Position numbers and translations under genes: made by a program | Notes under the pieces: model-generated | Told to the model about the DNA's origin: nothing | The model's database searches: none | The model's input: the letters and a program-made list of their open reading frames with translations, nothing else | Assembly: GCA_963930775.1 (NCBI GenBank) | Contig: OZ005696.1 | Span: 7,130,001-7,194,000, forward strand | Source: Cliona cf. orientalis | Lineage: Eukaryota > Porifera > Demospongiae > Clionaida > Clionaidae | Length of the DNA: 64,000 nucleotides | Direction: 5' to 3' | Shown: positions 2,344 to 49,407 of the stretch, piece by piece | Layout of the letters: each line of letters begins with the position of its first letter | Position numbering within the stretch: position 1 is the stretch's first letter

Positions 2344-5264
2344 ATGAAGAATACTGTTCTGATAGTGGGCTCTCTATTCCTATTCAGTCTTGCTTCATTT
2401 GTCCTGCAAGGACAATCTCTGTGTGATCTCTCAGAAGATGTGGCAATTGCTGATGCTTGCTACAAACTAGATGAGCAACTGCAGTATGCGCTGCTGCAAG
2501 ACAAAGGAAATTTATACCGATTGAGAAAGGCCTTTTTTTATGCTCCCAATGCTCATCCAGTTTTGTTGAGAGTTATCTACAACATCACGTACGCTGAAAA
2601 TGCCACACTGCAAGTTGCTTACTGTACCGATGATACAAGTGCTGCCAGTGGACTATCAATCAATGATACTGTTATTGTCCTAGGCTGGACATCCAGCGGA
2701 GTTTTTACTGTTTTCCACCCGTTAACTATAAACTTTATGCAAATTCAAGTGCCATTTGTGCTGATGACTGTGTTCTACCACATATTCAATGCCATAAATC
2801 CTGAGGGGAGTGGACCAGAAGCAGCTACCTTCCTGTGGAATGGAGGCTATGACCTTCCAACTCTTCATCTAAATCTACACTTCACAAATCTGACCTGCAT
2901 TCCCAGCAAAGACATATTTTACTCTGTTCTGAATGATTTCAATTCATTGGTGAGTAAAATTATTAACTTTTTCACACCGTACTCATGTGGCATTAAAGTC
3001 ACGTAGTTTCCTTGCAACAGTTAATGTTAGCTACCATAGTAATGGTTTGCTACACACTAGTGCATGTGCTTTAAGACCACATGCACCTATTAACAGTAAG
3101 TTACAATAGTTATACCACGGTCACCAGGGTGTGCCCTCAGAATAGGGTGGTTAGAGCGCAGTTGAGTAAACTTGTAACGTGATAGGCATAAGTTTTTCTG
3201 AGGAGCCTGGTTTCTCTCTGGGGCACACAGCATGGAAAGAGGTCGTTTGCTATCGTCATTCATGCATTGAAAAATCAGTTATTACACGGACCTTCTCTCA
3301 CGCTACACAGCAGATTTTGGCACGTTGCTTTGTAAGCCCTCGGGCCTGCGGCCCTCATGCTTTATATCACTACTGTACAAGTATGTTTGATGTCACAATC
3401 ATGGGATAATGTGACTGAACACTACTAACAGCATGGTGCCAGTTAGTACAGTGCGCATGCGCAGATGAAGACCACACCCCTCACTGCAGGCCGCGGCAAG
3501 AGTAGCTGCTCAAACTCATCGTGTAATGGCGACGTTCTCATTCCGCTCGAACGTCGAATCTACCACCAGACCATGACAAAGAGCAGACATCGCCTCTCGC
3601 TTCGCTCGAGGCTCGGTGGCCTGCCAAGCAGGCCTGTCGAAACGCGCGGCGCTTGCGCCTCTCGCTCGAGCTCAAGAATGCATCTCTATGGCCCCCTAGG
3701 CCCTGGCAACCTCGTTTGTGCACACGGCACAACATTTCTGACCAATCGTGAGTCTTCTGAATTTGTAGGAGAACGCATCTTTTATGCCCTCCAGGTTAGG
3801 ATACGGACTATATAAGAAAATTGATCGTCTGAAAAGTATTTTTCGTTGTATACAATATCTGCCTTGTGGCACTCAAGCCTGCATGTATAATAACTAATAC
3901 CAGAAGCACATGAAGAGAAGGAGAGTAGCTACATCTAGAAGTTATCGAAAATTATATCAATATCTTGTGATAGTCTCAACAAATAAATCTAACTACACCT
4001 AGGGATAATTGTAGTGGGTGCTATATACTATACCAAGAATAGCGCTATAGTGTAATGTGCCATGAACACTGTAACCACAAGTTATTGGTATGTTCAAAAC
4101 TTCCATAATAATATTATTATGGCAGTTTAATTTCTAACTTTGTTCTAGCTACGAGTCTACGCAGGAATAGATATCACCGGAATTATTCAAGATAGTGGAA
4201 ATACTCGTCTTGTTGGATTCTCGTTACCAAGTTCAAGTGTTTCTCCGGACCATACAACAGCTGAGTCAGATTTTTGGCTGTATATAGTTTATGTACTGAG
4301 CACATTTGTACTGTATGCAACATGTCTCACAACATTATTCTTTCTTGTGTCCAAAAGTGAACAAAAGGGCATAAAATCTTTCACCAAGAGAAACCCGGAG
4401 GTATTGACAGCCACAATCATTGTGATTGGGAGCTTTGTAGTTGTGGAGATTCTTGCAGAGCTAGTTATGGCAATTATTTGGACAGCGAGTGCGAAGCATC
4501 ACTTCATTGGTTTCACTGTATTCATTGCTGCCATTGCATATTATGCTCCTGGCGTATTTTCTGCATACAAAATTGGAAGGAAATGTTATGCATACTATAA
4601 TAAAGTGCGTGGCACTAAAACCCGTAAAATTATTGAAGAGGCGAAGATTGATGCTCTTTTTAAATGTTGTGTGTGGATAACAGCCTACTTTGCGTATGTT
4701 ATTCTGTATTCCTTTTTTCCTGCTTTTGTGCTAGCATTTGCCTATCCAACTAGAGTTATTACTATCTTTGCCTTTATGGCTACATTCTTGGTTTTATCCA
4801 TTGTTTACCTCACCACTTATATAAAGAAAGGTGTCACTTTTAAATGCTTAAAAGACAAAAATCAAGTTTTTATTAGCTTCACAAAAGTTATAATCTCCAT
4901 TGTACTGATTATTTTACTGCTTTACTTTTTTCTGCTAATTTTTGCACTCCTTTATGCTCTCGTGATCGGGAGAGCCTCGGTTGTTAGTTCAGCTCCTCTT
5001 GCTGTTCTCTCTCTCCTTCCTTCCATTTTAATTTCTATTGCAGCCTGGGCGATGAAATCCACCCTGCTAAAAACTGATAATGATGGGAGCAAAGAGGCAA
5101 AACAAGGCATAGAAGTATTAATTAACGAACAGGCTGGGGACAGGGGTGTCATTGAAATGGAAGGGATATCGATTGATCGAGATGGAGAAGCAACTAAGCG
5201 GCGACAACAGGAAGGAGCAAGTTGTGGCGATGAACAGGAAGATAAACAAGATACTAAAGTTTAA
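2344..5264 (+). CDS. orphan 7TM receptor-like protein, copy 1
   Basis: Two exons, 2344-2949 and 4149-5264, joined by a phase-0 intron (donor TTG|GTGAGT, acceptor TTCTAG|CTACGA); 573 aa. The start is placed at MKNTVLIVG, which opens a clear signal peptide; an upstream in-frame ATG at 2296 would only add a polar leader. Exon 1 encodes a ~180-residue ectodomain with cysteines (CDLSEDVAIADACYKL, AYCTDD, LTCIPS) and N-glycosylation sequons (NITY, NATL, NDT, NLT). Exon 2 encodes ~40 more outside residues, then seven hydrophobic segments (the first near residues 244-268) and a charged cytosolic tail. This matches N-out receptor topology, but no DRY or NPxxY motif is visible. Family not recognised; receptor function is inferred from architecture only. 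Confidence 0.8.
2950..4148 (+). other. intron of receptor copy 1
   Basis: 1199 bp. It contains a GC-rich patch at about 3470-3720 with Ser/Arg-rich spurious reading frames and no recognised protein. No transposon ends were resolved. Confidence 0.5.
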
Positions 5265-5889
5265 CAGGCCTATAATAATGTCACTTGATTGAACTTGAAT
5301 AATATTATTAGTCTTACTGTTACTGTATAGCTAAAATTAGTATAGTATTAATCATAATCTTTATTAATTTTTATAATTATTACCATTTGCTTATCCTTTG
5401 TCCTTTAATTTAAATTCTGTTTGTATAGGTACATGCACGCATTAGCTTATTAGCTACTTCATGTATCTACTGCATATTTGCAGGAATATTATGCTAGTGT
5501 GATATATTTCATCGTGGGGGCGAGCGTTCGCGAGTTTGTGTGTGCATGACACACGTCTAAGCTTATAGCGCTGCCGGGCACAAATAATATTATTATGCAA
5601 GAGATGTCGACATCAGCATGCGTGCGTCTCGCATTCTATGGTTCTGGCCGTCCTTTTATTCAACTACTTAGCAATGGACTTGTAAAATTATGTGAGTTTG
5701 TTAGCGTGCCACAAGCTGGAACGTACTGACAAAGCTACTGTGAGTCTGATCCTTTCGTTCGTCGCTTCCATCCCGAGCTCGAGCTCTCTTTTATCGCGCT
5801 CAGTCTCTGTTGCTGTCTTCTCTGTCTATTTCGTTCTCTCTAGCTAATGTTGGATCGTTCTTGGACCGTTCCTCTCGATCTCCTTTGTG
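5265..5889. other. 3' flank of receptor copy 1
   Basis: AT-rich 3' flank, then CG-bearing sequence at about 5510-5830. No gene supported. Confidence 0.4.
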
Positions 5890-8915: not shown

Positions 8916-8989
8916 ACCTTTGACTCTGATCATTTGATTTGAGCATACGCAAATAATTACCCCGCGCGCATGCGCAAGGGGTAAAGTAA

Positions 8990-12631: not shown

Positions 12632-14326
12632 ATGACTCAGAGTACAAGTACCGCTTTAATAGTAGGCACTCTGCTTCTACTGTCTTCATTAGTCCTGCAA
12701 GGACACTCTCTTGTATGTGATAACTCCGAAGATGTGGCAATTGCTGATGCTTGCTACAAATTAGATGAGCAACTGCAACATGCACTGCTGCAAGACAAAG
12801 GAAATTTGCATCGATTGAGAAAAGCTTTTTTCTATGCTCCCAATGCTCATCCGGTGTTGTTAAGAGTTATCTACAATGTGACATATGCAGAGAATGCCAC
12901 ACTGCGAGCTGCTTACTGTACCGACGATACAAACTTTAGTAATGAATTATCTATCAATGACACTATTATCACTCTAGGCTGGACATCAAGTGGAGTTTTT
13001 ACTGTTTTCCATCCATTAACTATAAACTTTATGCAAATACAAGTGCCGTTTGTGCTGATGACTGTGTTGTACCACATATTCAATGCCATAGACCCTGAGG
13101 GGAGTGGACCAGAAGCAGATACCTTCCTATGGAATGGAGGTTATGATCTTCCAACTCTTCGTCTAAACCTACACTTCACATATTTGACCTGCATTCCCAG
13201 CGAAGATTTGTTTAATTCCGTTGTGAATGATTTTAACTCCTTGGTGAGTACATGCATTGCTTACTTTTTGTATAATTATTGGTATTATCCTCTACCACAC
13301 TTAAACAATCATACATGCACATGTACAGTGACATGTTTGAGTATGGTATTATTATTATAGGACAAGTATAAAAAACAATAAAATTGAAGGATGAAGTAGG
13401 GATGGCAGGCTAAAAAAGTATACAAACAAGATTTGTAAGGCATAAGCATCTGCTATACATCCCTTCACTTTCTTTTCTCGTTTAGGCCACTCCAAATAAA
13501 TTTCCTGTTTCCCGTCCTGGAAACAACTAATGTAGTATGCGGGCGGGCGGGCGGTAAATCCCATTATTTACATAGTAGCAAGGCCTACAGGAAACACTTA
13601 AACTAATTAATTATCACTCACTTGAGGCAAGTATACTACGTGTACAAAAGTAAATGTGGATATTGCATACATGCAAAAGTACTAATAATGGAAAATTTCG
13701 TGACATGCAAGAAAAGGATGCGGGCGGTGGACGGGAAACAGGAAATTTATTTGGAGTGGCCTTATTATGCACCTATTAATGTTGAATCAGATGTATTTGT
13801 TGAGTGCGGCATGTGGGAGACATTCAGGTTCTCCTCTGGTTGTCACAATAGTTCAGGAGAGTCAGTTTTGATTCAGTTTCATTATTTTTGCACCCCTCAA
13901 AAAGCAAACGTAGGGATGTATAGCAGATGCTTATGCCTTACAAATCTTGTTTGTATACTTTTTGACCCTCAGTGCCATCCCTAAGTCATCCTTCAATTTT
14001 ATTGTTTTTTATACTTGTTTCTGTTTTTTTTTTCGTTGCTCTTAGCATATTATTTATCAATGCCATCTTATATGGCTTGCTCATTCAACTCTCAGTGTAA
14101 TTAAGTAGCTAGTATATAGATGGGCGGTACCGAAGTTCGCACGTGCGCGCAAAGTCCTATGATCCTATAGCCCCCCCAGCCATGCCCTTCAAGGTGGCTG
14201 ACAAAGAAGGCTGCCCAGGTAGCGGTGTGTCTCCGATTCAAGTTGTGAACTGGCTCACGGTTGGCTGCTGAGGATCCAGCCTCTTGATACCTAGTTCAGC
14301 TTTTACTGGCGCTAAAGCTCAGTGAT

Positions 14327-14357: not shown

Positions 14358-17300
14358 CAAGGCGACCTGAACACTAAGCAGAAAAAAAATTGTCCAAAAA
14401 CCACCATTATAATTGAGCTGGGTGCATAGTGGAGCCATACAATGCAAGCAGGCAGCCTAAATTTCAATTTTGTCAAAAAGTTGGTAAAGGTCGTCACGTT
14501 TATGTGCGCGCGTGGCCCCGCCCCTCACGTAGCGCGTGGGCGGAAACATTGCAAACGCATGGCTTCCCTGTACAAACATATGGGGAAACTTCAAAGGGCC
14601 GTAACTTTGATTCTAAGGCGTGAATCAAAATTCCTGAAGGTCAAATTTCTGCATTCGATCCATTCTGCGCGCCGGTGCAAAAATTATGTCCCCAAGTGCT
14701 CCCAGTTCCCCCCTGAATTAATTAATTAAAAATCTTTTTTTTTTTTCTACTTAGTGTTTAATTAATTAATTTAATTTTTTGTTTTTTTTTTGCTTATAAT
14801 ACTTTATGCATGAATATAATATGCACAGGATACACAATAGTAAATGTATACTAATCGAGTGTGCACCCAGAACATAACTAAAATTAATAGCATGAAATTA
14901 TAGTAACTAAATGACTAATAATAATTAGCTCGCGCGGGAGCCTGAGTCTGGCGTCTAGCTCGAGGCTAGAACTGAGCGCCGCGAGTGTCTGAGCGCTCAG
15001 TGAGCGATCGAGCCAGGCCAGTTTACATCAATGTATCATACATTGTACGCGGTCACCGGTCCGGTGCATTGCGCGCGCCGCGCCCCTGACCATAGTCACA
15101 TAAATGGCGTATCAGACACACCCAATAGTTAATGCGCCGTACACACCCACCATTACATCGAGATAATGCCAAACAAACGTGCCATGGATCTGCGCGCTAC
15201 AAAATAGAGTGGATTTATACGAGAACTAAGGCGAGCGGTCCAGACAGCCTTGAGTTAGCCCTGATAATGAAAAAGAAAGAGAAAGAATGAGAAATGGACT
15301 ATTTTTCAAACACCTGGTTCTGGCATGTACAGTTGTTTTGATGAATGATCTTGGTCTTGCTAGATGCACAATTTGCTGGAGATTCTGATTTTCACACTTA
15401 TTAGAAATTTCACAAAATTACCTATTTTGAGATATTTGGGTGTTTGTAATGTAGAGTAAGGTATGGATTTTCGAACGTACGCGTTTTCGGACATCACCAA
15501 GCCAACTTCGTTCAACCTGATGCTCTGTCCTGAACATCAACTGAGAGCCCCACCCAACAGTAATTAATGTCTACAATTAGTGACGCTGGAAGTTAGTGAC
15601 ATGGGTGTCGTGCTTCATCAAAGGAGTTATGCGAAATATTGATATTTGCCCAGGAGTATGAATTTTCGACTTAGCTTCGTAAAATACAAACAAAAAGTGA
15701 TCAACTGTCTCCAACTCCAGTGCAGCACCGGTACTACCTTGCCGTTCATGACCGGTAATTGTAGCCATCGAAGCCCCGCCCACTGCGCATGCGCAGTGGT
15801 TGTGCTAGGCCGGTTCCGGGTATTAATATTCGTCCGCACAGAAAGTCCGCTCTTTTGGAGAAGAAGGTCTTTACGTTGTTGTGGTCGCTATCAGAGCTTA
15901 CCAAGTCGCCTGTAGCGGTACGGATCAATCCTACAACGTCATTTCACCCCGTAAAAACACCCAATCTACGGTAGCTGTTCCAGCGTTACAGTTTTCCCTA
16001 GTCAATTCAAACGGCAGTGAGTGTAGGTGAGTTAACAGTGATACACAGGACACTTCTATATCGTCAAGAATATTTGACAATCGTTATTAAGGATCCATGG
16101 CAGGGGTGAAATTTAATATTAAAATTTAATATCATTAATAAATCTAGCTATAGTTAGCCATAAGTTTGAAATTCAAGCCAAACTGTTTTGTATAGTGGTT
16201 TCAGATGAATAATAATATTTAGAAGATCTTTATTAACATCATTTTTTATATTAAAGTGGCTATGGATAGCTGCAGATTTGCAGGTGTGCGGTCATCCCCT
16301 TAATTCAAGCCTTGTGTTAATAAGTTACTACTATAATAGCACTTAGTATTATCAAGCCCTAGTTCTTTCCAGTTTTATTTCTAGTTTTGAATTAATAGTA
16401 GTTACTCTTTTAATAATATGGCCTACATGTATACATGTGCATGCATGCATGCATGTCCAATTGGTTAGCTAGCACCATAAACAAGAACTGTCTGTTAGTA
16501 ATCTAATTACATTGAACATGGGTACCTACAAGCTGTACTCTGAGGAAGCCTACCACAGTCCAGACCCTCCTATAGTTTGTATAAGAACATACTATGTACT
16601 GGTTTTTTTTTTTTACTCTTAGCAGGTGTTCACAGTAAACATGCTGAGGAGAAAGAATTCCAAGGAGTATGTACCCTTAGCAAGGAGAGTTTATGCAACA
16701 AGACCTTCCTCCAAGCCTTCTATACCTATCACCGATCGTAAACAGTCCAATCGCCCTGCTGCATACAAATTGTGGACTGAGGAAAAGATCAGACTTGCTT
16801 GTGAGGCTGTAAAATGTGATGAATACACATACAGCAGAGCTGAACTTGAATTTGGTGTCCCTAAGTCTACTATCCGAGACAGAATCAGCGGGAAAACCTT
16901 ACCTGGTGCTACTAGTGGTCCAGAGCGGTACTTAACGGACACTGAAGAGCATGAACTGGTCCACTTTATCAAAGAATGTGCAAGGGTTGGATATGCCAAA
17001 ACTAGGAAGCAAATTATCACTATAGTCGAGTTAGCTTTGAAAACAAAACGTGGTCCTGATGCCTCCATCACACCTGGTTGGTGGTACTCCTTCAAAGGTC
17101 GACACCCAGAGTTAACAATTCGTACAGCTGAGAAACTAGCCTATGCAAGGGCTATCGCTCAGGATCAATCAGTGCTTGACCATTACTTTGACCTACTGGA
17201 ACAGACAATGTTGGAAAATGAGATAATTAGCTTTCCTAGCCGTATCTTCAATGTCGATGAATCAGGATTCCCACTGCAGGCACACAAATCTTGTGTCGTA

Positions 17301-20300
17301 GCTGAAAAAGGATGCAAACACCCTACCACAGTAACTACTGGAGACAAGGCACAAATTACTGTCATTGCCTGTGTTAATGCAAGTGGAGCAAAACTACCAC
17401 CAATGGTAATATTCGACCGTAAAGTTCTTAAAGCAGATTTGACATTGAATGAAGTCCCAGAAACCATTTATGCTCTGACCGATAACGGATGGTCGAATAG
17501 TGAGGTGTTTGACATATGGTTTCACAATCATTTTCTGGCATATGCTCCCACAGCGCGGCCGCTGCTTCTACTGATGGATTGGCACTCATCTCATTACAAT
17601 CCATCCACCATCAAGACAGCTGCAGCTCAGCAAATCATTCTTTTTTGTCTCCCACCTCATACAACTCACATCGCTCAACCTCTTGATGTAGCTGCTTTTG
17701 GAGTTTTGAAGCAGTGTTGGGATGAACAATGTCACCAGTATATGGCAAATAATCCAGGGAAGGTTGTCACTCGATTCCAATTTTCAGATTTATTTTCGCG
17801 TGCTTGGGCTGAAGCAATGATTCCACGAAACATTTGTGCAGGCTTCAAGGCTGCAGGGGTGTACCCTCTTGATTCAGCAGCATTTATTGCTCGTACAGCT
17901 TCCAGTGATGTTACCGACAGTCCGGCACATTCCTCTTCACTAAAGTTTGTGCCGATGTATAGCCCAATTGCTCCCAAAAGTAGACGTACTCAGTCGCTCA
18001 CTCAGGAGGAGGAAAAACATTTTCAACAAAGGTTTGAAGAGGGATATGATCTTTCCAATGATCCCAAATATATTTCATGGCTCCACATTCATCATCCTGA
18101 TGAAGCTAAGCGTCTTTGTGAACTGATTATTGATCCTACTGAAGAATCTCAGAGTCAGCAAACGGCATCAGATGTTGAGGGTGTCATCCGTAAAAGTGGT
18201 CTATCTAAACTTCTACAGCTTCCAAAACTCCCTGCTAAGTGTGTCCCACCAGCCAAGAAATCCTGTGCCAAAGTGCTTACAAGCACGGAGAATCTGAAGC
18301 GAATTGAACAGAAAGAGAGAGAAAAAAGAGAAAAGATAGAATTGAAAGAAGCGAAGCGGCGAGAGCGTGAGGCTAAAAGGGAGAAGAAGATACAAGAAAA
18401 GGAAAAAAAGAAGCAAAACGCTGACACCTCCATAAAGTTTACACCTCAAGAAGTAAAACTCTTCGCAAGACGACACGAGAATGGCTATAATTTGACTATT
18501 GATTCAAGGTACATGCTTTGGCTGAATTCTACATACCCAGATGAAGCTAAGAGGCTTCGTTCAAAGAAGACAATGGAGAGAACAGTGACAAGTAATGAAG
18601 TTGGAGGAACGAAAGATGGATCCACCAGTTGTGAAGAGCTCTCTGATGATGATCAGCATGATACACTTTTGACTAAAAGTAAAAATCCAAAAGATCCTGT
18701 GAGTGCACGTGCCTCCACATGTAATACAGCCAAGAAGGGTAGAAATACTTCTTTGTGCACCACAAAAGGTGCCACATCAAAGCAGCGAAGTACTCAGAAA
18801 AAAGGAGAGCAAGCTAGTGGATCAAGGCTCAAGAAAGGAGGTGGTTCTAAATCTGGAAGTGCCTCTTTGTGCACCACAAAAAGTGCCACATCAAAGCAGC
18901 GGAGTACTCAGAAAAGCGGAGAACCAGCTGGAGAATCTAGGCTCATGAAAGCATCTACTAAATCTGGAAGCTTAAGAGTTACACGTTCACAGACTCAAAA
19001 CAGTAGGAATGCTAAATTGTGTGACAGTAGCACTTCCAGGAAAAAATCTGTAGCTAGTACAGCAGCTAAAGCGTGTACAATAGTGACACGGTCTAAGAAA
19101 GGATGCAAACAATCTCCCAGCCCAGTCCCTGAATCAGACATGTCAGAGAGTTCGGCTATTGGCTCCGACTACGAAGAGGGTGAGTTTCCAATGAGTTGTA
19201 TTATACTGGTAAAACTATTATAGTGGATGCTGGTAGTATCTAACACTATTTCTGCATAAATACACACTGTCACTATCCTTTTATTTTCTTTTTTTTTTTG
19301 CAGACCATCCATGCGATGCTACATTCTGCATAGCAGAGTTCTGCGATGATTCAAAGCTGCAGTGGGTATGCTGTCAAGACTGCAAAGCATGGCATCACCA
19401 AGTCTGTGTTGGGCTCAGTAACATAGAAATTACCAATGATGACGTCTACATCTGCTATGATTGCAAAGAGTAACTTTATGTGTTGAATTTTGTGGAGAAA
19501 CTCCTTGTAAATTGATTTAAAGGTTGTGCGATATTTCATACCGGAAATAATGTTCATATTGGCGCCGCGCGCACAAGATGGGCGGGGCTAGGGGAGCTGC
19601 AATCACTACACAAGGAAGGTGAAGGGGTAGGCTAAGGATATTATGATTATGAACGATAGTCCTCTAGAATATAGCAAGTTACACTACGTGGACGAAAATT
19701 CATACTCCCGTCCATATATCGATATTTCGTTCGTCAACTTCGGTGCTCTACAGCGCCCACGTTCTTAGACGCCATCATCACTCGTTCCAGATGGCTACTA
19801 CTATCAGGCCACCCTACCACTTCATGACTACATTAATGTTTCTGGCATAATACTCGCAACGAGAGGACGTCCGATAATTCCTACGTCCGAAAATCCATAC
19901 CTTACTCTATTACATATATGGCATATCCGGGCCATCCCTACTTATAGAGTCTACCGACTCTACTATGATAATGCCAATAATAAAATTTGCTTCTAAACAT
20001 GATCATGTTGTTCACTATGCATGAAGTTATTACAGATACTGGTCTGGCCCAAGCTGTTACATGATTTCAGATCACTGAACTTACCTGAGTACTATTAGCT
20101 ACATGCATGCCATGGCTAGCTAACTCAGAATCATGATAAATATTATTATAGGATTCAGGTTGGGGAGATTTTATATTATTGATCGCACCTGCCCTCAAAT
20201 ATTATTATTCCTGCGTTTGACACAGTGACGGTCGTGCACAGTATACATAATATAGTACTTGCAGAAAATTATTCAAGGAAATAGCTATTAGTAACTTTAT

Positions 20301-21543
20301 TATTATAAAAATTGTTGTAATACATTTTGGTTGCATGTTTTAGCTACGAATCTACGCAGGAAGAGAAATTACAGGAATTATTCAAGATAGTGGAAATACC
20401 CATTTTGTTGGATTCTCGTTACCAAATTCAAGTGTTTCTCCGGACCATACAACAGCTGAGTCAGATTTTTGGCTGTATGTAGTTTATGTACTGAGCACAT
20501 TTGTACTGTATGTATCGTGTCTCACAACCTTGTTTTTTCTTGTATCTAAAAGTGAAGAAGGTGGCATAAAATCTTTCACTAAAGGTAACCCAGAGGTACT
20601 GAAAGCTACGATCATTGTGATTGGGAGCTTTGTAGTTGTGGAGATTCTTGCAGAGCTTGTTATGGCAATTATTTGGACAGCAAATGCGAAGAATCGCTTC
20701 ATTGGTTTCACTGTATTCATTGCTGCCATTGCATATTATGGTCCTGGTATATTTTCGGTATACAAAGTTACAAAGAAATGTTATCTATATTATCATAAAA
20801 AAGTGTTGCATGACAGAAGACACAATTATACTGCAAATTTAAACCCCCCTATTAATGAAGACAACATAGATATTGAAGAGGTGAAGATTGATGCAATTTT
20901 TAAATGTTTTGTGTGGATAACAGCCTACTTTGCATATGTTATTCTATACTCATTTTTTCCTGCTTTTGTGCTAGCATTTGCCTATCCAACTAGAGTCATA
21001 ACTATTTTTGCCTTCATGGCTACATTCTTGGTTTTATCTATTGTCTACCTCACTACTTACATAAAGAAAGGTATCACTTTGAAATTTTTAAAAGATATTG
21101 AAAATCAAGTTATAGTTATCTTCATAAAGGTTATAATTGCCATTTCATTGATTTTTTTACTGCTTTATTTTTTCCTGCTAATTTTTGCACTCCTTTATGC
21201 TCTTGTTATCGGGAGAGCCTCTGTTGTTAGTTCAGCCCCTCTCGCCCTTCTCTCCCTCCTTCCTTCCATTTTAATCTCTATTGCAGCCTGGGTGATGAAA
21301 TCCACTATGCTAAACAACGATAATGATGTAAATAACCATGGAAAAAACGAGAAGTTATTAAGACGTATCAGCAAAAAGGAATTGAAAAAAAAGGGCACAA
21401 ATGTAGATGAAGAAAATCAAGATGGAGTCAATGCACAAGACAAGGAAAGACGTGGAGGAGAGGAAATTATAGAAGAGGCAGGTCAAAATGAAGATTCTGA
21501 AGTCCAACCGGCTAAAATTGTGCCGGATAACGAAAGGAACTAG
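12632..21543 (+). CDS. orphan 7TM receptor-like protein, copy 2 (transposon-laden intron)
   Basis: Exons 12632-13243 and 20344-21543 (donor TTG|GTGAGT, acceptor GTTTTAG|CTACGA, phase 0); 603 aa. Signal peptide MTQSTSTALIVGTLLLLSSL, then the family ectodomain with NVTY, NATL and NDT sequons. The domain plan matches the other copies. The cytosolic loop between segments 3 and 4 is long and carries unique sequence (CYLYYHKKVLHDRR...NIDIEEVKID). The tail is basic then acidic, with a PKA-like RRIS site. Its 7100-bp intron contains a hairpin element, a Harbinger-like MITE, an ACACTAAG MITE and a full pogo-like element. The splice sites remain canonical, so the gene may still be expressed. Function unknown. 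Confidence 0.78.
13363..14017. mobile_element. hairpin element with ~113-nt inverted arms
   Basis: The arms at about 13363-13475 and 13900-14017 are near-perfect reverse complements, starting CAAGTATAAAAAACAATAAA. A Harbinger-like MITE sits between the arms. It inserted in the copy 2 intron after the segment TGTTTGAGT...ATTATTATAG, which is uninterrupted in copy 5. Confidence 0.8.
13485..13761. mobile_element. PIF/Harbinger-like MITE A (TTA duplication)
   Basis: 277 bp with TIR GGCCACTCCAAATAAATTTC at both ends, flanked by TTA at 13482-13484 and 13762-13764. Subterminal GCGGGCGG tracts match MITEs B-D at 34-36 kb. The three-base TWA duplication and GGCC-type TIR are typical of PIF/Harbinger Tourist-like elements. 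No coding capacity. Confidence 0.8.
14371..14757. mobile_element. ACACTAAG-type MITE, copy A
   Basis: 387 bp; the ends ACACTAAGCAGAAAAAAA and TTTTTTCTACTTAGTGT are inverted repeats. The interior blocks GGTCGTCACGTTTATGTGCG and AAACATATGGGGAAACTTCA are shared with the copies at 29476 and 29879. It is preceded by a long T run. Superfamily not assigned. Confidence 0.75.
15105..15340. repeat. segment related to 41990-42510
   Basis: Blocks ATCAGACACACCCA, GTTAATGCGCCGTACACACC, TTGAGTTAGCCCTG and GAAAGAATGAGAAATGG are shared with 41990-42510. There they are split by a hairpin insertion. Probably an interspersed repeat. Confidence 0.6.
15454..19907 (+). mobile_element. complete pogo/Tigger-like DNA transposon
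   Basis: The TIR GAGTAAGGTATGGATTTTCG is identical at both ends (20 bp) and is flanked by TA at 15452-15453 and 19908-19909. A second inverted block lies subterminally (GGAGTATGAATTTTCG near 15652 and inverted near 19690). It encodes one two-exon transposase on the plus strand and lies wholly inside the intron of receptor copy 2, in the same orientation. TA duplication, a psq-type HTH and DD35D spacing place it in the Tc1/mariner-pogo group. Both ends and the reading frame are intact, so the insertion may be recent. Confidence 0.9.
16641..19473 (+). CDS. pogo-like transposase with C-terminal PHD finger
   Basis: Exons 16641-19179 and 19304-19473 (donor GAGG|GTGAGT, acceptor TTGCAG|ACCATC, phase 1); 902 aa. 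An acceptor-like TTAGCAG lies just before the ATG, so a 5' exon may exist. Domains: HTH_psq near residues 45-90 (AELEFGVPKSTIRDRISG), a CENP-B-like HTH, then a DDE nuclease with D206 (NVDESGF), D313 (LLLMDWHSSH) and D349 (IAQPLDVAAFG), a DD35D arrangement. Next come two copies of a ~40-residue motif (GYDLSNDPKYISWL...PDEAKRL and GYNLTIDSRYMLWL...PDEAKRL), a Lys/Glu coiled coil and a duplicated SLCTTK-ATSKQRSTQK segment. The second exon encodes a C4HC3 PHD finger (WVCCQDCKAWHHQVCVGL...YICYDC). It would cut and paste its own element. Confidence 0.9.
20344..20345 (+). other. exon 2 start of receptor copy 2
   Basis: The splice acceptor GTTTTAG|CTACGAATC is conserved in all intact copies and fixes the phase-0 junction NSL|LR(I/V)YAG. 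Confidence 0.8.
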
Positions 21544-29400: not shown

Positions 29401-32400
29401 GTGCCAGGAACACGCCCACATGCTTAATTAGGCCTAATTAACCTTTTTTTTTTTTTTTTTTTCAAGGAGACCAGAACACTAAGCAGAAAAAAAATGTCCG
29501 GAAACCACCACATAGTTGAGATGGATGCTTAGTAGAGCCACACAATGCAAAGCAGGTAGCCTGTACTCCAATTTTGACCAAATCAGGTAAAGGTCGTCAC
29601 ATTTATGTGCGCGCGTGGGCGGAAAACATTGCAAATGCATGGCTTCCTATACAAACATATGGGGAAACTTCAAAGGGCCGTAACTTTAATTCTAAGGCGT
29701 GAATCAAAAATCTGTCCGGTCAAATCTCTAGTTTTGACCCATTCTGCGTGCCCATGTAAAAATTGTCCCCGCAAGTACTCCCAAACCCCCCATGAATTAG
29801 ATTATTTATTTAAATTTGCTTTTTTTTTCTACTTAGTGTATAATTAGTGTATAATTAGTGTATAACAAGCTAGCGTGCACACTAAGCAGAAAAAAAATTG
29901 TCCAGAAAACCACATAATACACCTAGGATGCACAGTAGAGCCATATAAAGCAAGCAAACAGCCTATACTCCAATTTTGAGAAAATTTCTAAATAACGCAC
30001 ACCACGGGTATTCCCAGTTTTTCACGTAGCGCGTGGGCGGAAAACATTGCAAACGTATGGCTTCCCTATACAAACATATGGGAAAACTTTAAAGGGCCGT
30101 AACTTTAATTCTAAGGTGTGAATCAAAATTCCGCTTCCTAGAAACTTCTAGTTAAGACCCATTCTGCATGCTCATATCAATTATTTGTCGTGAATGTTTT
30201 CCCAGAGTCTCCAACATTACTTTACTTTAAATTCTTTTTTTTTGTGTGTAATTGTCGTTGCGGTTAATAGTTAAGCAAGAATGCTTTGATCTTGCTTTGA
30301 TGTGGGCAATTACCGGCCTTTTCTTCACGGGCCACTTCCGGTCGCTAATTACACGCGCATAATCATCCCTGGCCGATTCTGGACACGCCCACCTTCGACC
30401 AAAAGCACTCGTATGGCCTCTTCGGCCACGCCCCTTCACGATTCGCTAATTGAATTATCCATTCGGACTGACGCTCACGCCCACGCAATTAAATGGTACC
30501 TTAAACCAATCAACCAATCAATCAGATTTCTGAATGTTTCTGACGAGGGTGGGGCTGATCAATGCAGAGATGCACCGTTGTAGATGCACGCGGGCTATGC
30601 TAATATAGCCAAGTGCGAGTGCGCAGTAAATTTATCAATATTTGCTGAAACATTTGATTATTAAAGACGAGTGCCATCGTCGATCGTTTCAATGAGATCA
30701 ACTCCCAGGCGCTGATCCAGAAAATTTGCATGGAAGGTGGCTGCCCATAGTAAACCATACTGGTACCGGTGCAAAGGAGGTTGCTGGTTAATAATGCCGT
30801 GGACATCTCCTACTACGTTGCATAAACTGAGAACTTGTGAAGTGGGGTGGCTAGCCATCCCCCCCCCCCCCCCCCCCCCAGATCAGCCCCTGACTCCGGT
30901 CCAGCTTTGTTCACAGACCATTCCCATGGGATAAAGCTAAGAACACCTCGTAGCTAGCTACTAGTACAAATCCCTTCCCTCTGACACGGCGACAAGTAGA
31001 TGCTGACTCAGGTATAATATATTATAGCTAGCTATGCAATCATGAATTTATTTGGCTGCCACAAGTCGGATCATTGTTGTGTTTGCAAACTTGAAATTAA
31101 TGTCAATGTGCCTGATGAGTTTATGGTGTGTTCCTAAAGGGAATCCTGGGGTCAAAGGTCAGCCTACATATGGCTCACTTACAGCACATATATCTTTTGC
31201 TGGCATTAATGTCATCCCACAATACATTCATTGTCTATATCCGGGAAGGTTTTACGTGAGGTTAAAGTCCATCTGTATGAGCAGTGTGTTGTTGCAGTAT
31301 TATCAGCCCACATACCTAGCTATACATTGTATATATCTGGGGAGATTTTACGTGAGGTCAGAGGTCATACATAAATCACCCCCTGATTATTGTGTTGGTA
31401 AGTCAGTATTACATGGGAAGATTTTACGTGAGGTCAGAGGTCACACATAAATCACCCCCTGATTGTTGTGTTGGTAAATCAGTATTACATGGGAAGATTT
31501 TATGTGAGGTCAGAGGTCACACATAAATCACCCCCTGATTATTGTGTTGGTAAATCAGTATTACATGGGAAGATTTTACGTAAGAACTTTGACCTTACGT
31601 AAAATCTTCCCATATAAAGTAACGAATGTAAACACTGATAATACTTTACATGTGACGTAAAATCCTCCCATGATTAGATCATGGCAGAAGTCATGTAAAA
31701 TCTCCCCATGATTAACCCAAGGGAGAAGTCACGTAAAATCTTCCCATGATAGAATCATGGCATTTTTCCTACTTTTACGTAAACATACGGTAATACTCTG
31801 CTTTGAATCAAAAATAAAGTTTGTTCCTGAGACCCTGTTGTTAACTCTGGGTATCTCTGAGACACTGATCCGGATCCGGCCCCAAACATAATAAGCTTAA
31901 TTATTTCAGATCTGTGTATGCAGTGCCTCCAAGCTGCTCTCCTATCTTTCAGTACTAGTAAATATTCCCATTTTTCAGTATTTTGCATACATTTTCAGTA
32001 TTTTACAAAGAGCTCCATATATGATGTATGTACCGAATTGTATTTTATGGTCAGAATTCAGTAAATTAAAAGTACTGACAAATCCGTATATACTTGGAGG
32101 CACTGTTTGTATTACTAGCTAGCTATAAATTATACACATTGTAGGAGATTTGATTTATTGTTGTTGTATAGTATAGAACCGTGTGTTGTTACAGTATTTT
32201 CAGCCCACACAGCTATAGTAACTACCTAGGCACCATAATATTATAATAATAATTATATTATTATTATAACTAGCTATAGGAGATTATATATATTATATTG
32301 GCTGCATGCATGCACCTAATTATTGTTCTTGCATCTGCATGGCACACTCTGAAATTGTAGTAAATTATAATTATTATTGTAATCAATTTTGGTTGTTTTA

Positions 32401-33562
32401 GCTACGAATCTACGCAGGAAAAGATATCACAGGAGTTATTCAAGATAGTGGAAATACTCGTTTTGTTGGATTCACTTTGCCAAGTTCAAGTGTTTCTCCG
32501 GACCATACGATAGCTGAGTCAAATTTTTGGCTGTATATAGTTTATGTACTGAGCACAGTCGTACTGTATGTATCGTGTCTCACGACCTTATTTTTTCTTG
32601 TGTCCAAAAGTGAAAAAAGTGGCATAAAATCATTCACTAAAGATAACCCAGAGGTATTGAAAGCCACAATTATCGTTATTGGGAGCTTTGTTGTTGTGGA
32701 GATTCTTGCAGAGCTTGTTATGACAATTGTCTGGACAGTGAATGTGAAGCATCCCTTCGTTGGTCTCACTATATTTGCAGCCGCCATTGTATACTATTGT
32801 CCTGGTATATTTTCTGTATGCCAAATTATAAGGAAATGTTATCGATGCTACTACAAATTTAAAGAAGAAAAAAAATATTCTGTTGAAGAGGCGAAGAATA
32901 AGGCTCTTTTTAAATCTTGTGTGTGGGTATTAGCCTACTTTGCATACATTCTTCTCTACTCCTTTTTTCCTGCTTTTATGCTAGCATTTGCCTATCCAAC
33001 GAGAGTTATCACTATTTTTGCCTTTATAGTTACATTCTTGCTTTTATCCATTGTTTACCTCACCACTTATATTAAGAAAGTTGTCACAGTGACTTTGAAA
33101 ATCTTAAAAGACAAAAATCAAGACGACAGAAACAAAAAAGACAAAAATCAAGAACACAAAAGTGAAGTTAAAATTAGGTTCATAAAAGTTATAACCTCCA
33201 TTATACTGATTATTCTACTGCTTTACTTTTTTCTGCTAATTTTTGCACTCCTTTATGCTCTCGTGATCGGGAGAGCCTCTGTCGTTAGTTCAGCCCCTCT
33301 TGCCCTTCTCTCTCTCCTTCCTTCCATTTTAATCTCTATTGCAGCTTGGGTGATGAAATCCACCCTGCTAAAAAACGATAATGATACATATAACCATGGA
33401 AAAAATGAGAAGTTAAGACGTATCAGCAAAAGGGAATCGAAAACAATGGGCACATCAAATGAAGATGAAGAAAATCAAGATGGAGTCAATGAACAAGATG
33501 AGGAAAGACATGAAATGGAAATTATAGAAGAGGCAGGTCAAAATAGAGATACTGAAGTATAA
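26403..33562 (+). CDS. orphan 7TM receptor-like protein, copy 3
   Basis: Exons 26403-27014 and 32402-33562 (donor TTG|GTAAGT, acceptor TTTTAG|CTACGA, phase 0); 590 aa. Signal peptide MAQSYTALIVGLLLLLSS, then the ectodomain with NITY, NATL and NLT sequons and the conserved GWTSSGIFTVFHPLTINFMQ stretch. Exon 2 has seven hydrophobic segments. The loop between segments 5 and 6 carries a private KDKNQDDRNKKDKNQ insertion and the loop between 3 and 4 is short (KFKEEKKYSVEEAK). The tail has a PKA-like RRIS site and an acidic end. The 5387-bp intron contains a nested transposon complex. Reading frame intact; function unknown. Confidence 0.78.
29476..29839. mobile_element. ACACTAAG-type MITE, copy B
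   Basis: 364 bp; ends ACACTAAGCAGAAAAAAA and TTTTTTTTCTACTTAGTGT. The interior closely matches copy A at 14371, including the preceding T run and TTCAAGG. Confidence 0.75.
29879..30246. mobile_element. ACACTAAG-type MITE, copy C
   Basis: Starts ACACTAAGCAGAAAAAAAAT and shares ACATATGGGAAAACTTTAAA and GGGCCGTAACTTTAATTCTA with copies A and B. Its right end is degenerate. It sits 40 bp from copy B in the same orientation. Confidence 0.65.
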
Positions 33563-34556: not shown

Positions 34557-34599
<43 letters not shown>

Positions 34600-36026: not shown

Positions 36027-38511
36027 ATGACTCAGAGTACAAATACCACTTTGATAGTAGGCACTCTGCTCCTACTATCTTCATTAGTCCTGCAAGGACA
36101 CTCTCTTACATGCGATAACTCTGAAGATGTGGCAATTGCTGATGCTTGCTACAAACTTGATGAGCAACTGCAATATGCACTGCTGCAAGACAAAGGAAAT
36201 TTGCATCGACTGAGAAAGGCCTTTTTCTATGCTCCCAATGCTCGCCCAGTGTTGTTGAGAGTTATCTACAACGTGACGTACGCAGAGGATGCCACACTGC
36301 GAGCTGCTTACTGTACCAATGATACAAATTCTGGAAATGAACTATCAATCAATGACACTATTAGCACTCTAGGCTGGACATCAACAGGAGTTTTTACAGT
36401 TTTCCACCCGTTAATTATAAACTTTATGCAAATACAACTGCCATTTGTGCTGATGACTGTGCTCTATCACATATTCAATGCCATAAACCCTGAGGGGAGT
36501 GGACCAGAAGCAGCTACCTTCCTGTGGAATGGAGGCTATGACCTTCCAACTCTTCGTCTAAACCTGCACTTCACAAATTTGACCTGCATTCCTAGTGAAG
36601 ACTTGTTTAGTTCTGTTTTGAATGATTTCAACTCATTGGTGAGTATTACTAAGAAGAATGAGCCTTCTTCACTTGCTCACATTTTATCGAGTCCAAAACC
36701 CTCGGCGCGTTGCATGGCTATACACGTTTCAGTGTTGCACCCAAAAAAGGGGATAAAGGGCTGGGGTGAGGATATTATGGGCCAGAGATAAGGCTATTGC
36801 AATGTTATACTTGCACACCAGTATAATTGTTCAAGGTTCAACGGTTCACAGCAACAACAACCCTGGTGTGTCGAATCGAACTCTGCACTGTGGTGCAACT
36901 GCCAATATAGCGTGTGATACGGAATGTTCTTACGCCGAGTAAAGTCATGCAAAGTCATAAAGTCAAGAAGCTTTGAATTAGCAAACAGTGATGCCAAAAC
37001 TGGCTAACAAAGCGTTTTTGGCGAAATCCACACAAATCCTGCCTTTTGAACACCATAAGGAACCTTATAACACCGCACTTGACTCGCAAACCGGTGAGGT
37101 ATGTGGCAGCTAAGCTTGGTATAGCAGACAGATACACACACAGAACGACTACGTGGCGTAACCCTGACGTATGTGCCAAAGGTATAATATAGGTAGCAGC
37201 TATATATACCTATGCGTCATAACAGGTACTATTACTATATAAGATTCTGGGGAGATTTGTATTATTGACTGCACCCACCCTTGCATGGTACTACTCGCAT
37301 AAAACTTTTTAAGGAAATAGCAAAATTAATAGCTAGCTAATTTTTTTATTATTGTAATAAATTTATTGTTTTAGCTACGAATCTACGCAGGAAGAGAAAT
37401 TACAGGAATTATTCAAGATGATGGAAATACTCGTTTTGTTGGATTCTCGTTACCAAGTTCAAGTGTTTCTTCAGATCATACAACAGCTGAGTCAGATTTT
37501 TGGCTGTATATAGTTTATGTACTCAGCACATTCGCACTGTATGTAGTATGTCTCACAACATTATTCTTAATCGTGGCCAGTAGTGAACAAAACGGCATAA
37601 AATCTTTCATTAAAGATAACCCAGAGGTATTGAAAGCCACAACCATTGTGATTAGCAGCTTTGTAGTTGTGGAGATTCTTGCAGAGCTTGTTATGGCAAT
37701 TATTTGGACAGTGAATGTGAAGCATCACATCATTGGTTTCACAGTATTTGCAGCTGCCATTGCATATTACGGTCCTGGTGTATTCTCTGTATACAAAGTT
37801 GTAGAGAAACACTATCTATGCTATAAAAAAGTGAATGACAAATTAAACACCCTTAATAACAATAAAGTTAAAGAGATGAAGAATGATACTCGTTTTAAAT
37901 GTTTTGTGTGGATAACAGCCTACTTTGTGTATGTCATTCTGTATTCCTTTTTTCCTGCTTTTGTGCTTGCATTTGCCTATCCAACAAGAGTCATAACTAT
38001 TTTTGCCTTCATGGCTACATTCTTGGTTTTATCCATTGTTTATCTCACTACTTACTTAAAAAAGAATCTCATTTTGAAAATCTGTGGTCACTCCATAATT
38101 GGGTTCAAAAAAGATATATTTTCTATTATATTAATAATTTTACTTCTTTACTTTTTTATGCTTATTTTTGCACTCCTTTACTCTCTTGTGATCGGGAGAG
38201 CCTCTGTTGTTAGTTCAGCCCCTCTTGCTCTTCTCTCTCTCCTTCCTTCCATTTTAATCTCTATTGCAGCTTGGGTGATGAAATCCACTATAATGCTAAA
38301 AAGCAATAATGATACCAATAACCATGGAAAAGATGAAGAAATTCAAGATGGAGTTGATAATATGCAGACAATGGTTGAGGAAAGGCATGGCAGAGAAGAA
38401 ATGGAAATAGAAGGGGCAAGTCAAGATGGAAAAGTAATTACCATAACCAAGCGGTTACGACAGAAAAGAGAAAGTTATGACAATGAAAAGGAACTAGATA
38501 CTAAAGTTTAA
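36027..38511 (+). CDS. orphan 7TM receptor-like protein, copy 4
   Basis: Exons 36027-36638 and 37375-38511 (donor TTG|GTGAGT, acceptor TTTTAG|CTACGA, phase 0); 582 aa; intron 736 bp. Signal peptide MTQSTNTTLIVGTLLLLSSL, almost identical to copy 2, and an upstream block also like copy 2. The ectodomain keeps CDNSEDVAIADACYKL, AYCTND and LTCIPS. The loop between segments 3 and 4 is private (KVNDKLNTLNNNKVKEMKND), as is the one between segments 5 and 6 (NLILKICGHSIIGFKKD). The tail lacks RRIS and ends KELDTKV, similar to copy 1 (KQDTKV). Confidence 0.8.
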
Positions 38512-43674: not shown

Positions 43675-45910
43675 ATGAAGAATACTGTTCTGATAGTGGG
43701 CTCTCTATTGCTTGCTTCATTAGTCCTGCAAGGACAATCTCTATGCGATCGCTCGGAAGATGTGGCAACTGCTGATGCTTGCTACAAACTAGATGAGCAA
43801 TTGCAATATGCACTGCTGCAAGACAAAGGAAATTTGCATCGATTAAGAAAGGCCTTTTTCTATGCTCCCAATGCTCACCCGGTGTTGTTGAGAGTTATCT
43901 ACAACGTGACATACGCAGAGGATGCCACACTGCAAGCTGCTTACTGCACCGATGATACAAACTCTGGTAATGAATTATCTATCAATGACACTATTATCAC
44001 TCTAGGCTGGACATCAACAGGAGTTTTTACTGTTTTCCACCCGTTAACTATAAACTTTATGCAAATTCAAGTTCCATTTGTGCTGATGACTGTGTTGTAC
44101 CACATATTCAATGCTATAAACCCTGAGGGTAGTGGACCAGAAGCAGCTACCTTCCTGTGGAATGGAGGCTATGACCTTCCAACTCTTCGTCTAAACCTAC
44201 ACTTCACAAATTTGACCTGCATTCCCAGCGAAGATTTGTTTAATTCCGTTGTGAATGATTTCAACTCATTGGTGAGTATCATAATATTATTGCTTACTTT
44301 TTGTATAAATAAACTTTTATTGGTATTATCCTCTACCACACTTAAACAAACATACAATGTCATGTGCATGTATAGCGACATGTTTGAGTGTGGTATATAA
44401 TAATATTATTATATAGGATAATGCCAATAATAAAATGTTTCTCTGCATGGATCTAAACATGATCATATTGTAGTATATGCATATTACAGATACTAGTACT
44501 GGTCCGGCCCAAACTGTTACATGCACTGAACTTACAGCAATAGTATTATGTTATAGGTACATAGCTAGCTAACTGAGAATCGTGATAAATATTATTATTA
44601 GGATTCAGGTTGGGGAGATTTTGTATTTTTGATTGCACCTACCCTCAAATATAGCTACCTCAGACAATTATTCAAGGAAATAGCTTATTTATTACTATAA
44701 TATAATTGTTGTAATACATTTTGGTTGCATGTTTTAGCTACGAATCTACGCAGGAAGAGAAAATGCAGGAATTATTCAAGATAGTGGAAATACTCGTTTT
44801 GTTGGATTCTCGTTACCAAGTTCAAGTGTTTCTCCGGACCGTACAACAGCTGAGTCAGATTTTTGGCTGTACATAGTTTATGTACTGAGCACATTTGTAC
44901 TGTATGTATCGTGTCTCACAACATTATTCTTTCTTGTGTCCAAAAGTGCTGAAAGTGGCGTAAAATCTTTCGCTAAAGATAACCCAGAGGTACTGAAAGC
45001 TACGATCATTGTGATTGGGAGCTTTGTAGTTGTGGAGATTCTTGCAGAGTTTATTATGGCAATTATTTGGACAGCGAATGCGAAGCATCACTTCATTGGT
45101 TTCACTGTATTCATTGCTGCCATTGCATATTATGGTCCTGGTATATTTTCAGTATACAAAGTTATAAGGAAATGTCATCTATATATATATCGCAAAAAAG
45201 AAAAAATGCATGACGGAATTATGTACGACTTAAATGTACAGTCCTCTATCAATGAAGGTAAATGCAACATAGATATTGAAGAGGTGAAGATTGATACACT
45301 TTTTAAATGTTTTGTGTGGATAACAGCCTACTTTGCATATGTTATTCTATACTCATTTTTTCCTGCTTTTGTGCTAGCATTTGCCTATCCAACTAGAGTC
45401 ATAACTATTTTTGCCTTCATGGCTACATTCTTGGTTTTATCTATTGTCTACCTCACTACTTATATAAAGAAAGGTGTCACTTTGAAAATTTTAAAAGATA
45501 AGAATCCATTTATAGTTAGCTTTACAAAAGTTATAATCTCCATTATACTGATTATTTTACTGCTTTACTTTTTTCTGCTAATTTTTGCACTTCTTTATGC
45601 TCTCGTGATCGGGAGAGCCTCTGTCGTTAGTTCAGCTCCCCTTGCTGTTCTCTCCCTCCTTCCTTCCATTTTAATCTCTATCGCGGCCTGGGTGATGAAA
45701 TCCACTATGCTAAAAAACGATAATGATACAAATAGCCATGGAAAAAGTGAGAAGTTATTAAGGCGTATCAGCAAAAAGAAATCGAAAAAACATGGTACAA
45801 ATGAAGTCGAAGAAAATCAAGATGGAGTTAATGCACAAGATGAGGAAAGACATGGAAGAGAAGAAATGGAAGAGGCAGGTCAAAATAGAGAATCTGATTC
45901 TGAAGTATAA
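43675..45910 (+). CDS. orphan 7TM receptor-like protein, copy 5 (shortest intron)
   Basis: Exons 43675-44271 and 44738-45910 (donor TTG|GTGAGT, acceptor GTTTTAG|CTACGA, phase 0); 589 aa. Signal peptide MKNTVLIVGSLLLASLVLQG, then CDRSEDVATADACYKL, sequons NVTY, NDT and NLT, AYCTDD and LTCIPS. Seven hydrophobic segments in exon 2. The loop between segments 3 and 4 is the longest with that of copy 2 and shares NIDIEEVKID with it. The tail has RRIS and ends ESDSEV. The 466-bp intron has no transposon and aligns with both ends of the copy 2 intron, giving the ancestral layout. Exon 1 is closest to copy 1 at the signal peptide, while exon 2 is closest to copy 2, which suggests exchange between copies. 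Confidence 0.82.
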
Positions 45911-46794: not shown

Positions 46795-46820
46795 CCCCCC
46801 CCCCCCCCCCCCCCCCCCCC
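46795..46820. repeat. poly-C run
   Basis: About 25 C in a row. Similar runs at about 30860 and 34560. Reading frames through them are artefacts. Confidence 0.9.
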
Positions 46821-47580: not shown

Positions 47581-48080
47581 CACAATATAGTCACAGATAT
47601 GACGTATCTATTAGTTAATTGGACCGACGTGACGTCAACAGAATCACAGCCGCGCCGGGCCGTTCGCGAATAAAATTCGCGATCGCGCGCACAAACATCC
47701 ACCCACGATCCTTTACCCGCTAGCTGCAATGGTCCCTATAGTATAGTTGGGCAATGGCAGCCATGTGTTAGTGGCAAAATAATATAATGGCTTACACTTG
47801 ATAATAATATAGGCCACTGCGGCAGTCCATACAATTCTTAATTCATCTTCACATACAAAATTAGCCGGCCCAGTTTGTTATCTTAGAGTTTCAACTTTCA
47901 GGTTGTAGCTATAGTGATTGGTTACTCTTCAGTAGATTAAGATATACTAAGGATGTTGATATATTAAGTCTATAGAAACTGCATTCGATCTGCAAATGAT
48001 GAAGTATAACACACAATATATGTCATTACTTGGCAAAAATTGCTATTCTCATGATTTTGGTTGTTTTATAATACATGCAG

Positions 48081-49407
48081 CTGTGAGTTTATGCTGGCGT
48101 AGATATCACTGGAATCATTCAAGACAGCGGAAACGATAGCATTTCCTTCCAACCTTGTACAAAGAGAATATGCCAGGACCATAATACACAAAGGCTGCTT
48201 CAAATACAGTGAAATCAATGGGAAAATTGTCCACGTTCACTGTCCAAATTTTAATGATCGCCGTAACAAGCTTTGCAATAGCCTCCGCAAGCACAAAGCT
48301 GCCAATCACAATGATTGTGACCATCAATACCTCCGGGTTTCTTTTGGTGAAAGATTTTATGCCCCTTTGCTCATTTTTCGATATTGCAAAGAATATTATC
48401 GTGAGACAGGATGCATACAATACAAAAGTACTCAGGACGTAAACTATATACATAGAGCCAAAAATCAGTTGCATGGTAAGCAGAAACGCTTGAATTTGGC
48501 AAAGAGAATCCAACATAACGAGTAGTACTACCATGGAAAGGATGACATGAGGGATGTTGCAACCCGCTTAAGCACACCTCTTAATGATGTTGATGCAGCA
48601 AAAATTGATGCTGTTTTTAAATGCTTTATGTGGATAATAGCCTATTTTGCGTACGTTCTTCTCTACTCCTTTTTTCCTGCTTTTGTGCTAGCATTTGCCT
48701 ATCCAACGAGAGTTATCACTATTTTTACCTTTATAGTTACATTCTTGATCTTATCTATTGTCTATCTCACTACTTACATTAAGAAAGGTATTACATTGAA
48801 AAGTCTTAAAGATTTTAAGTGCATAAAAATTATAATCTGTATCATACTCATGATTTTACTTTTGTACTTTTTTATCTTTGTTTTTGCACTCCTTTACTCT
48901 CTTGTGATCGGGAGAGCCTCTGTCATTAACTCAGCCCCTCTCGCCCTTCTCTCCCTCCTTCCTTCCATTTTAGTCTCTATCGCGGCTTGGATGATGAAAT
49001 CCACCCTGCTGAACAGCGACAGCGGTAGTGGAAGAAGTGTCACCGAAACTGATTATGGTGTGAAACATGTAGACAGAGAAAACAAGATAGAGTCTGATGG
49101 GAGCGTAACGCTTACTAGCTACAAGAAACTTAAATTGAATGAAGGTAGAGAAACAACTGGGCTAACGCAATATGAAGAAAGTCGCAGCTATGAAGTAAAT
49201 GAGACCGAAAAAGCTTTTCAAGATGGAGGCGTAATTTCCAACGCTATGCTAATACAGAGTGAAGAGGGTTGTGCCGGAGAAGAACATAAAACAAATGGAG
49301 AGGGATCCGGAGATGGAGAGTCGATTGTCTTAAGAATGCGGCTAATACAGAAAGAAGAAACTTATGGCACACAAGAAAGCGAAACAGAGAGTGAAACTAA
49401 GATTTAA
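48081..49407 (+). pseudogene. receptor copy 6: exon 2 only, with internal inversion
   Basis: The acceptor (ACATGCAG|CTG) is followed by a TGA where every other copy has the Arg codon CGA, then VYAGVDIT. From about 48134 to 48535 the sequence is inverted. Read on the minus strand it gives the missing middle (TRYVGFSLPNSSVS, the first three hydrophobic segments, KVGRKCYR) with one 4-base frameshift after DFWLY. From about 48547 the plus strand resumes with segments 4-7 and an unusually long acidic, Ser/Thr-rich tail in one open frame to 49407. No exon 1 is seen upstream. It cannot make a family-type receptor. Confidence 0.88.

Follow-up and report, generated by a model that had tools for sequence, protein, structure and literature searches.

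A putative receptor-like family of seven-segment membrane proteins, tandemly expanded in the sponge Cliona cf. orientalis

A tandem array of two-exon genes in the demosponge Cliona cf. orientalis raises the question of what kind of membrane protein it encodes. The window, a 64,000-nucleotide stretch of contig OZ005696.1 (C8:7130001-7194000; C1, C3, C8 and the like denote contigs of the 217-Mb, 149-contig genome that we searched), holds five intact genes, R1-R5, encoding proteins of 573-603 amino acids (aa), and one broken copy. A first-pass annotation, made from the letters of the window, had proposed an orphan family of seven-transmembrane (7TM) receptors, perhaps for chemical or allorecognition cues. 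The description of an unrecognised, tandemly expanded family with a secreted ectodomain, a 7TM bundle and a tail stands; its suggested chemosensory or allorecognition diversity is not supported. Our preferred reading, to which we give a probability of about 0.5, is a PDZ-anchored, N-out 7TM receptor-like family whose members share one conserved partner outside the cell and vary on their cytosolic sides. What is new here is the pattern of conservation: the ectodomain appears more conserved than the transmembrane (TM) segments TM1-7 in distant pairs, in contrast to most receptors, and the cytosolic parts appear the most variable.

Gene models, coding status and topology

All five intact gene models of the first-pass annotation were reproduced at the same positions, and the broken copy is present as well (Table 1). 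The introns of R1-R5 have a GTGAGT or GTAAGT donor and a TAG acceptor and are in phase 0 between NSL and LR(V/I)YAG in 5/5 genes, as had been described; five of five distant family genes (C6a, C3a, C3b, C3c and C6b) keep this position and phase with GT...AG borders. The copies placed at 2344..49407 are there, but the array is not confined to that range: it begins near C8:7076774, ~53 kb before the window start, and totals eight intact and two broken copies within ~103 kb. Upstream of the broken window copy (48081-49407), tblastn detected no exon 1. R2 and the upstream gene U1 are a near-identical pair with an exon-1 dN (nonsynonymous divergence) of 0, a recent duplicate.

Among the eight intact array genes, the ratio of nonsynonymous to synonymous divergence (dN/dS) was below 1 for both exons in all 28 pairs, at 0.14-0.32 for exon 1 (0.00 for the R2/U1 pair) and 0.38-0.66 for exon 2. 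Judged by these ratios, the array genes are under purifying selection, and together with the common intron position this argues that the gene models are not chance.

The ectodomain comprises exon 1 and ~40 residues at the start of exon 2. It carries four cysteines in 8/8 array genes, and each window gene has 3-5 N-glycosylation sequons within its first 240 residues, one of those in R4 sitting within the signal peptide. A hydropathy scan (19-residue span, cut 1.6) gave a signal-like N-terminal peak in seven of the eight array genes, R3 falling below the cut, and thus in 4/5 window genes. These features agree with the first-pass description of exon 1 as a signal peptide and glycosylated, cysteine-containing ectodomain, in which glycosylation and signal cleavage of R1-R5 would be predicted. 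Seven TM peaks were found in all eight genes except U2, where TM3 lies under the cut; R2 and U1 each have an extra peak between TM6 and TM7, and R4 one in the ectodomain. A charged tail follows TM7 in R1-R5, again as annotated. With TM segments set by hand for the loop charges, lysines plus arginines number 16-28 on the inner loops and 3-4 on the outer loops in 8/8 genes, an excess that places the N-terminus outside. By hydropathy and the positive-inside charges, then, the predicted topology is N-out with seven segments, in agreement with the layout given in the first-pass annotation.

Table 1. Features of the array and of its introns. Positions are those of the window unless prefixed with C8.
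Feature	Position	Strand	Remark
R1 exon 1	2344..2949	+	signal peptide and ectodomain; R1 = 573 aa
R1 exon 2	4149..5264	+	ectodomain end, TM1-7 and tail; C-terminus DTKV (class-I PDZ ligand)
R2 exon 1	12632..13243	+	R2 = 603 aa
Open frame within R2 intron	16623..19223	+	866 aa; DDE_1 transposase match, 2.6e-21
R2 exon 2	20344..21543	+	DSEV, then 12 further residues
R3 exon 1	26403..27014	+	R3 = 590 aa
Inverted repeats, R3 intron	27967..31786		97-98% complementary; 38/76-bp tandem units
R3 exon 2	32402..33562	+	C-terminus DTEV (PDZ ligand)
R4 exon 1	36027..36638	+	R4 = 582 aa
R4 exon 2	37375..38511	+	C-terminus DTKV (PDZ ligand)
R5 exon 1	43675..44271	+	R5 = 589 aa
R5 exon 2	44738..45910	+	C-terminus DSEV (PDZ ligand)
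Broken copy, exon 2 start	48081..48135	+	second codon is a stop
Broken copy, TM1-TM3 segment	48136..48529	-	in-place inversion, ~394 bp
Broken copy, TM4-TM7 and tail	48586..49407	+	C-terminus ETKI
U1	C8:7076774/7080364		intact frames; upstream of window
U2	C8:7090775/7091814		intact frames; upstream of window
Upstream pseudogene	C8:7109553/7110502		stop in exon 1; exon 2 passes from a point shortly before TM4 directly to tail
U3	C8:7123087/7125292		intact frames; upstream of window

Conservation outside, variation inside

We compared regional dN/dS over ungapped codons in the 21 pairs among seven array genes, U1 being left out as a near-duplicate, with 60 bootstraps (5-95% ranges in brackets). 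The extracellular set gave 0.24 (0.20-0.31), TM segments 0.23 (0.17-0.30), intracellular loops (ICL) 0.53 (0.34-0.80) and the tail 0.71 (0.51-1.13), alignment error in loops and tail inflating dN and dS alike. The extracellular set retains the signal peptide, as its count of 254 codons indicates; with the signal peptide removed and the loops treated separately, the ectodomain had a ratio of 0.23, the outer loops 0.16, the ICLs 0.59 and the tail 0.57. Across the seven genes, extracellular loops ECL2 (two residues) and ECL3 (ten residues) are identical, ECL1 (six residues) is only 63% identical, and the cytosolic parts are 76% (ICL1), 39% (ICL2), 54% (ICL3) and 46% (tail) identical. The most conserved segments of the array are TM4 (88%), TM5 (89%) and TM7 (92%).

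Beyond the array, identity of the ectodomain exon (44-60%) exceeded that of TM1-7 (16-53%) in 15/15 pairs among R5, C6a, C6b, C3c, C10 and C3b, the pairing of the C10 exons, ~6 kb apart, being assumed. An overlapping set, in which C3a replaces C10 and the membrane part includes the loops, gave the same result by pairwise alignment in 15/15, one pair over just 59 membrane positions. End branches of C3a, C6a and C6b measured 0.047, 0.73 and 1.16 in an ectodomain tree and 0.44, 1.83 and 5.63 in a 7TM tree. The ectodomain tree unites the array genes (support 97/98), and the 7TM tree places C6a among them. The trees agree in direction with the contrast between ectodomain and TM part, only 2/9 and 4/10 inner branches, respectively, being well supported.

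As a small control, we took a few class A G-protein-coupled receptor (GPCR) pairs of the same genome. In the L084 pair, identity was 93% for ICLs plus tail, 85% for TM, 79% for the N-terminus and 74% for the ECLs, with dN/dS of about 0.09, 0.39, 0.43 and 0.21. The related class A receptors L004, L005 and L007 keep 41-43 of 43 ICL3 residues, and 6/17 N-terminal residues in two of the three pairs and 30/35 in the third. The family appears to keep its outer side and vary its cytosolic side; the few class A pairs show the opposite.

The motif [ST]-x-[VIL], which we take to be a class-I PDZ ligand, closes nine of 23 C-termini. Its frequency within the same tails would predict 0.86 such ends, and 0/20000 draws reached nine; the 23 include the two broken copies and exclude L051, a frame with a stop. 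Such ends occur in 5/10 C-termini of the C8 array (R1, R3, R4, R5 and the broken window copy), 1/4 on C3, 3/3 in the C17 cluster and 0/6 elsewhere. R2 lacks one because 12 residues come after its DSEV; the upstream pseudogene and U1 share its run DSEVQPA. A location in the plasma membrane is suggested by the PDZ ends.

On our preferred reading, the protein would reside in the plasma membrane, where the conserved ectodomain and outer loops would bind a single conserved partner outside the cell. The bundle would relay binding inward, PDZ scaffolds would anchor the protein, and the divergent loops and tails could lead to different outputs among paralogues. The variability of ICL2 and ICL3 speaks against a single shared G-protein coupling.

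Known relatives and competing explanations

The first-pass annotation had recognised no standard GPCR motif, and profile searches bear this out. Pfam scans of 16 exon-2 members, 15 exon-1 members and seven further sequences (two of them repeated) gave no credible match, transporters and channels included, and no confident match to a known non-receptor family emerged by sequence profile. PDB profile searches likewise gave none, the sole receptor listed being GPR15 at chance level (E 2.9). We discounted several stray matches: PFF1_TM in L054 alone (7.5e-4), under the Pfam cut-off and extending beyond the TM region into the tail; Ctr (0.008) and NCA2 (0.053), each in one of 16 members; DUF4969 (0.014) and Cytomega_gL (0.025), each in one of 15; and cytochrome c oxidase polypeptide II in the PDB search (E 0.025). 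Rfam gave no match. In the best-ranked open-licence literature on sponge or novel 7TM families we recognised no description of this one. Ectodomains of a similar, uncharacterised sort may occur in proteins of cnidarians and sponges. Passages of two GPCR catalogues, for Amphimedon by Pfam search (PMC4302439) and later by 7TM profiles plus a topology model (PMC12716839), indicate that both were built from known 7TM profiles, which a profile-less family can escape.

We class the family as receptor-like and not as GPCRs, its main rival being a GOST-like carrier: divergent trafficking chaperones of the TMEM87, GPR107/108, Wntless or Hi-GOLD type that carry a conserved cargo. We consider this unlikely, though likelier than the other rivals. 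As in GOST proteins (TMEM87, GPR107/108, GPR180, TMEM145, Wntless) and Hi-GOLD receptors, a luminal or outer domain with several cysteines precedes a 7TM bundle free of class A motifs and class A profile matches, and a conserved outer side would fit a conserved cargo. No scanned member, however, matched GOST_TM or GPR180-TMEM145_TM; GOST-type genes are present elsewhere in the same genome, so the lack of a match is not a failure of the models. Hi-GOLD proteins were compared by description. Further differences from both groups are the tandem expansion, the PDZ-ligand tails of many members, which suggest the plasma membrane, and the TM6-TM7 loop, GRASVVSSAP, without cysteine in the eight array genes. 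As to a GOLD beta-sandwich, the ectodomain gave no credible Pfam match, and a crude Chou-Fasman propensity mixed helix and strand, too weak for use. Passages of PMC9711517, which give the TMEM87A structure and define GOST, describe a disulfide from the ectodomain to the TM6-TM7 loop, perhaps not present in all GOST proteins, and suggest that TMEM87A may lack G-protein coupling; PMC12716839 treats GOST receptors and reports Hi-GOLD receptors from sponges. With no cysteine in that loop, the second disulfide of TMEM87A is impossible in the array genes.

Less probable is a seven-segment channel or transporter subunit of an unknown kind. Channels, too, commonly have PDZ ligands and variable inner loops, and we count these features for this reading, together with the placement of the best-conserved array segments in TM4, TM5 and TM7. 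TMEM87A is reported as a cation channel (PMC11239671). Against it, no transporter or channel profile matched credibly, PFF1_TM and Ctr being strays in one member each.

Somewhat more doubtful still is membership in one of the established GPCR classes (A, adhesion, glutamate or Frizzled) after divergence past sequence recognition. The topology is alike, strongly diverged receptors are reported from sponges in parts of PMC4302439, and GPR15 did appear, at chance, in one PDB profile search. No GPCR profile matched any scanned member: 7tm_1 was absent from 16/16 exon-2 members, with 52 PF00001 matches elsewhere in the genome, and 7tm_2, GAIN and GPS were absent as well, unlike in adhesion GPCRs, which also have a large ectodomain before the 7TM bundle. 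By hhalign, a profile-profile comparison that covered class A, the family scored 2.1% against eight class A sequences of the genome, compared with 5.5% for reversed class A and 98.9% for the class A positive control. NPxxY is the TM7 motif of class A GPCRs; by eye, TM7 of the eight array genes, of the type LALLSLLPSILISIAAWVMK, contains none. The class A genes of this genome share tandem arrays and N-out seven segments with the family but differ in their unrelated profile; the family has two exons and a large ectodomain.

Very improbable is a chemosensory or allorecognition array diversified on its extracellular side, as the first-pass annotation had hinted: tandem copies with pseudogenes and the recent R2/U1 duplicate would suit it, but the outer side is conserved (dN/dS 0.23-0.24) and ICL2, ICL3 and the tail vary, the reverse of what the few class A pairs show.

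Several points weigh against our preferred reading of a PDZ-anchored receptor-like family. A match to any known signalling receptor is lacking throughout the family. Seven segments and a cytosolic tail suit GOST cargo carriers, channels and transporters too, and fast-changing ICL2 and ICL3 would be unusual for G-protein coupling. The conservation contrast is small between R5 and C6a (ectodomain 57%, TM 53%), close array paralogues have equal dN/dS in ectodomain and TM, and TM misalignment in distant pairs, maybe in TM1-TM3, inflates the contrast. Fourteen of 23 C-termini lack a PDZ end; the nine matches are non-independent, since clusters share descent, and their probability is not literal. 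Lastly, a single-sequence search back from one distant pair of members, on C1 and C17, found its twin and one weak C19 match, and not the array.

If the PDZ-anchored family does signal, ~34 loci would join the sponge's sensory or cell-cell signalling toolkit, and with a conserved ectodomain a single ligand hunt would serve much of the family. More tentatively, it could represent a receptor class separate from every known GPCR family, defined by its slow-evolving ectodomain and not by its bundle, in which one ancient signal would be read by many paralogues differing in bundle, loops and PDZ tails.

Loci across the genome and minor observations

Ectodomain loci number at least 34 on seven contigs (nine on C8, seven on C17, six each on C6 and C3, three on C1, two on C10 and one on C14), or maybe 33, as two C1 pieces 4.7 kb apart are possibly one gene. 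This lower bound comes from genome search matches (26, 26 and 2) merged by eye and includes fragments and pseudogenes; the nine on C8 exclude the broken window copy, which has no exon 1. Four of the loci, at C6:8.58-8.60M, are counted on their ectodomain. By profile-profile comparison, the C17 cluster links to the family at 97.8% over 118 columns for the 7TM part and 98.1% over 119 for the ectodomain, and the C1:6.21M/C17:5.50M pair at 95.5% over 130 and 87.8% over 49, respectively; reversed-alignment controls gave 0.3-2.9%, and the 7TM links are confined to the bundle's second half. The members of that pair (C1:6208949-6210699 and C17:5496529-5498279) are distant from the rest, but their ectodomains are 94% and their 7TM parts 97% identical to each other; they may stem from a recent inter-chromosomal duplication. 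Weak genome matches lie at C2:1233306 (E 0.0076), with stops and a low-complexity stretch, and at C19:688697 (E 0.0058). Scans of viral and prokaryote contigs with the ectodomain alignment, the 7TM part not serving as query, gave 35 and 36 pattern matches, none confirmed.

Two introns of the array carry features of their own. The transposase frame in the R2 intron is presumably of pogo/Tigger type; a bacterial promoter scan of this intron gave shuffle-level matches, a bacterial consensus not being meaningful for an animal. The repeats in the R3 intron are perhaps a fold-back element, and 38-bp units similar to them occur at window 1250-1357. Runs of C were seen at window 34559-34599 (41 nucleotides) and 46795-46821 (27). 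Downstream of the array, three minus-strand frames at window 59722-63556 hold four PH-domain stretches in total, one under the Pfam cut-off, and likely form one multi-PH gene.

Elsewhere in the genome, three silicatein-type active-site motifs (CGASYAF, in which serine replaces cysteine) lie within 5 kb at C12:3669638-3674600, with 0 in the control; silicateins are known from demosponges, so the motifs by themselves make a demosponge likely. These matches came from the version of the motif with an AGY serine, and the version with a TCN serine had 0 genome matches. Among the class A receptors, L003 and L008 have long open frames of 1219 and 1340 aa, and by eye the ectodomain of L008 is leucine-rich-repeat-like.

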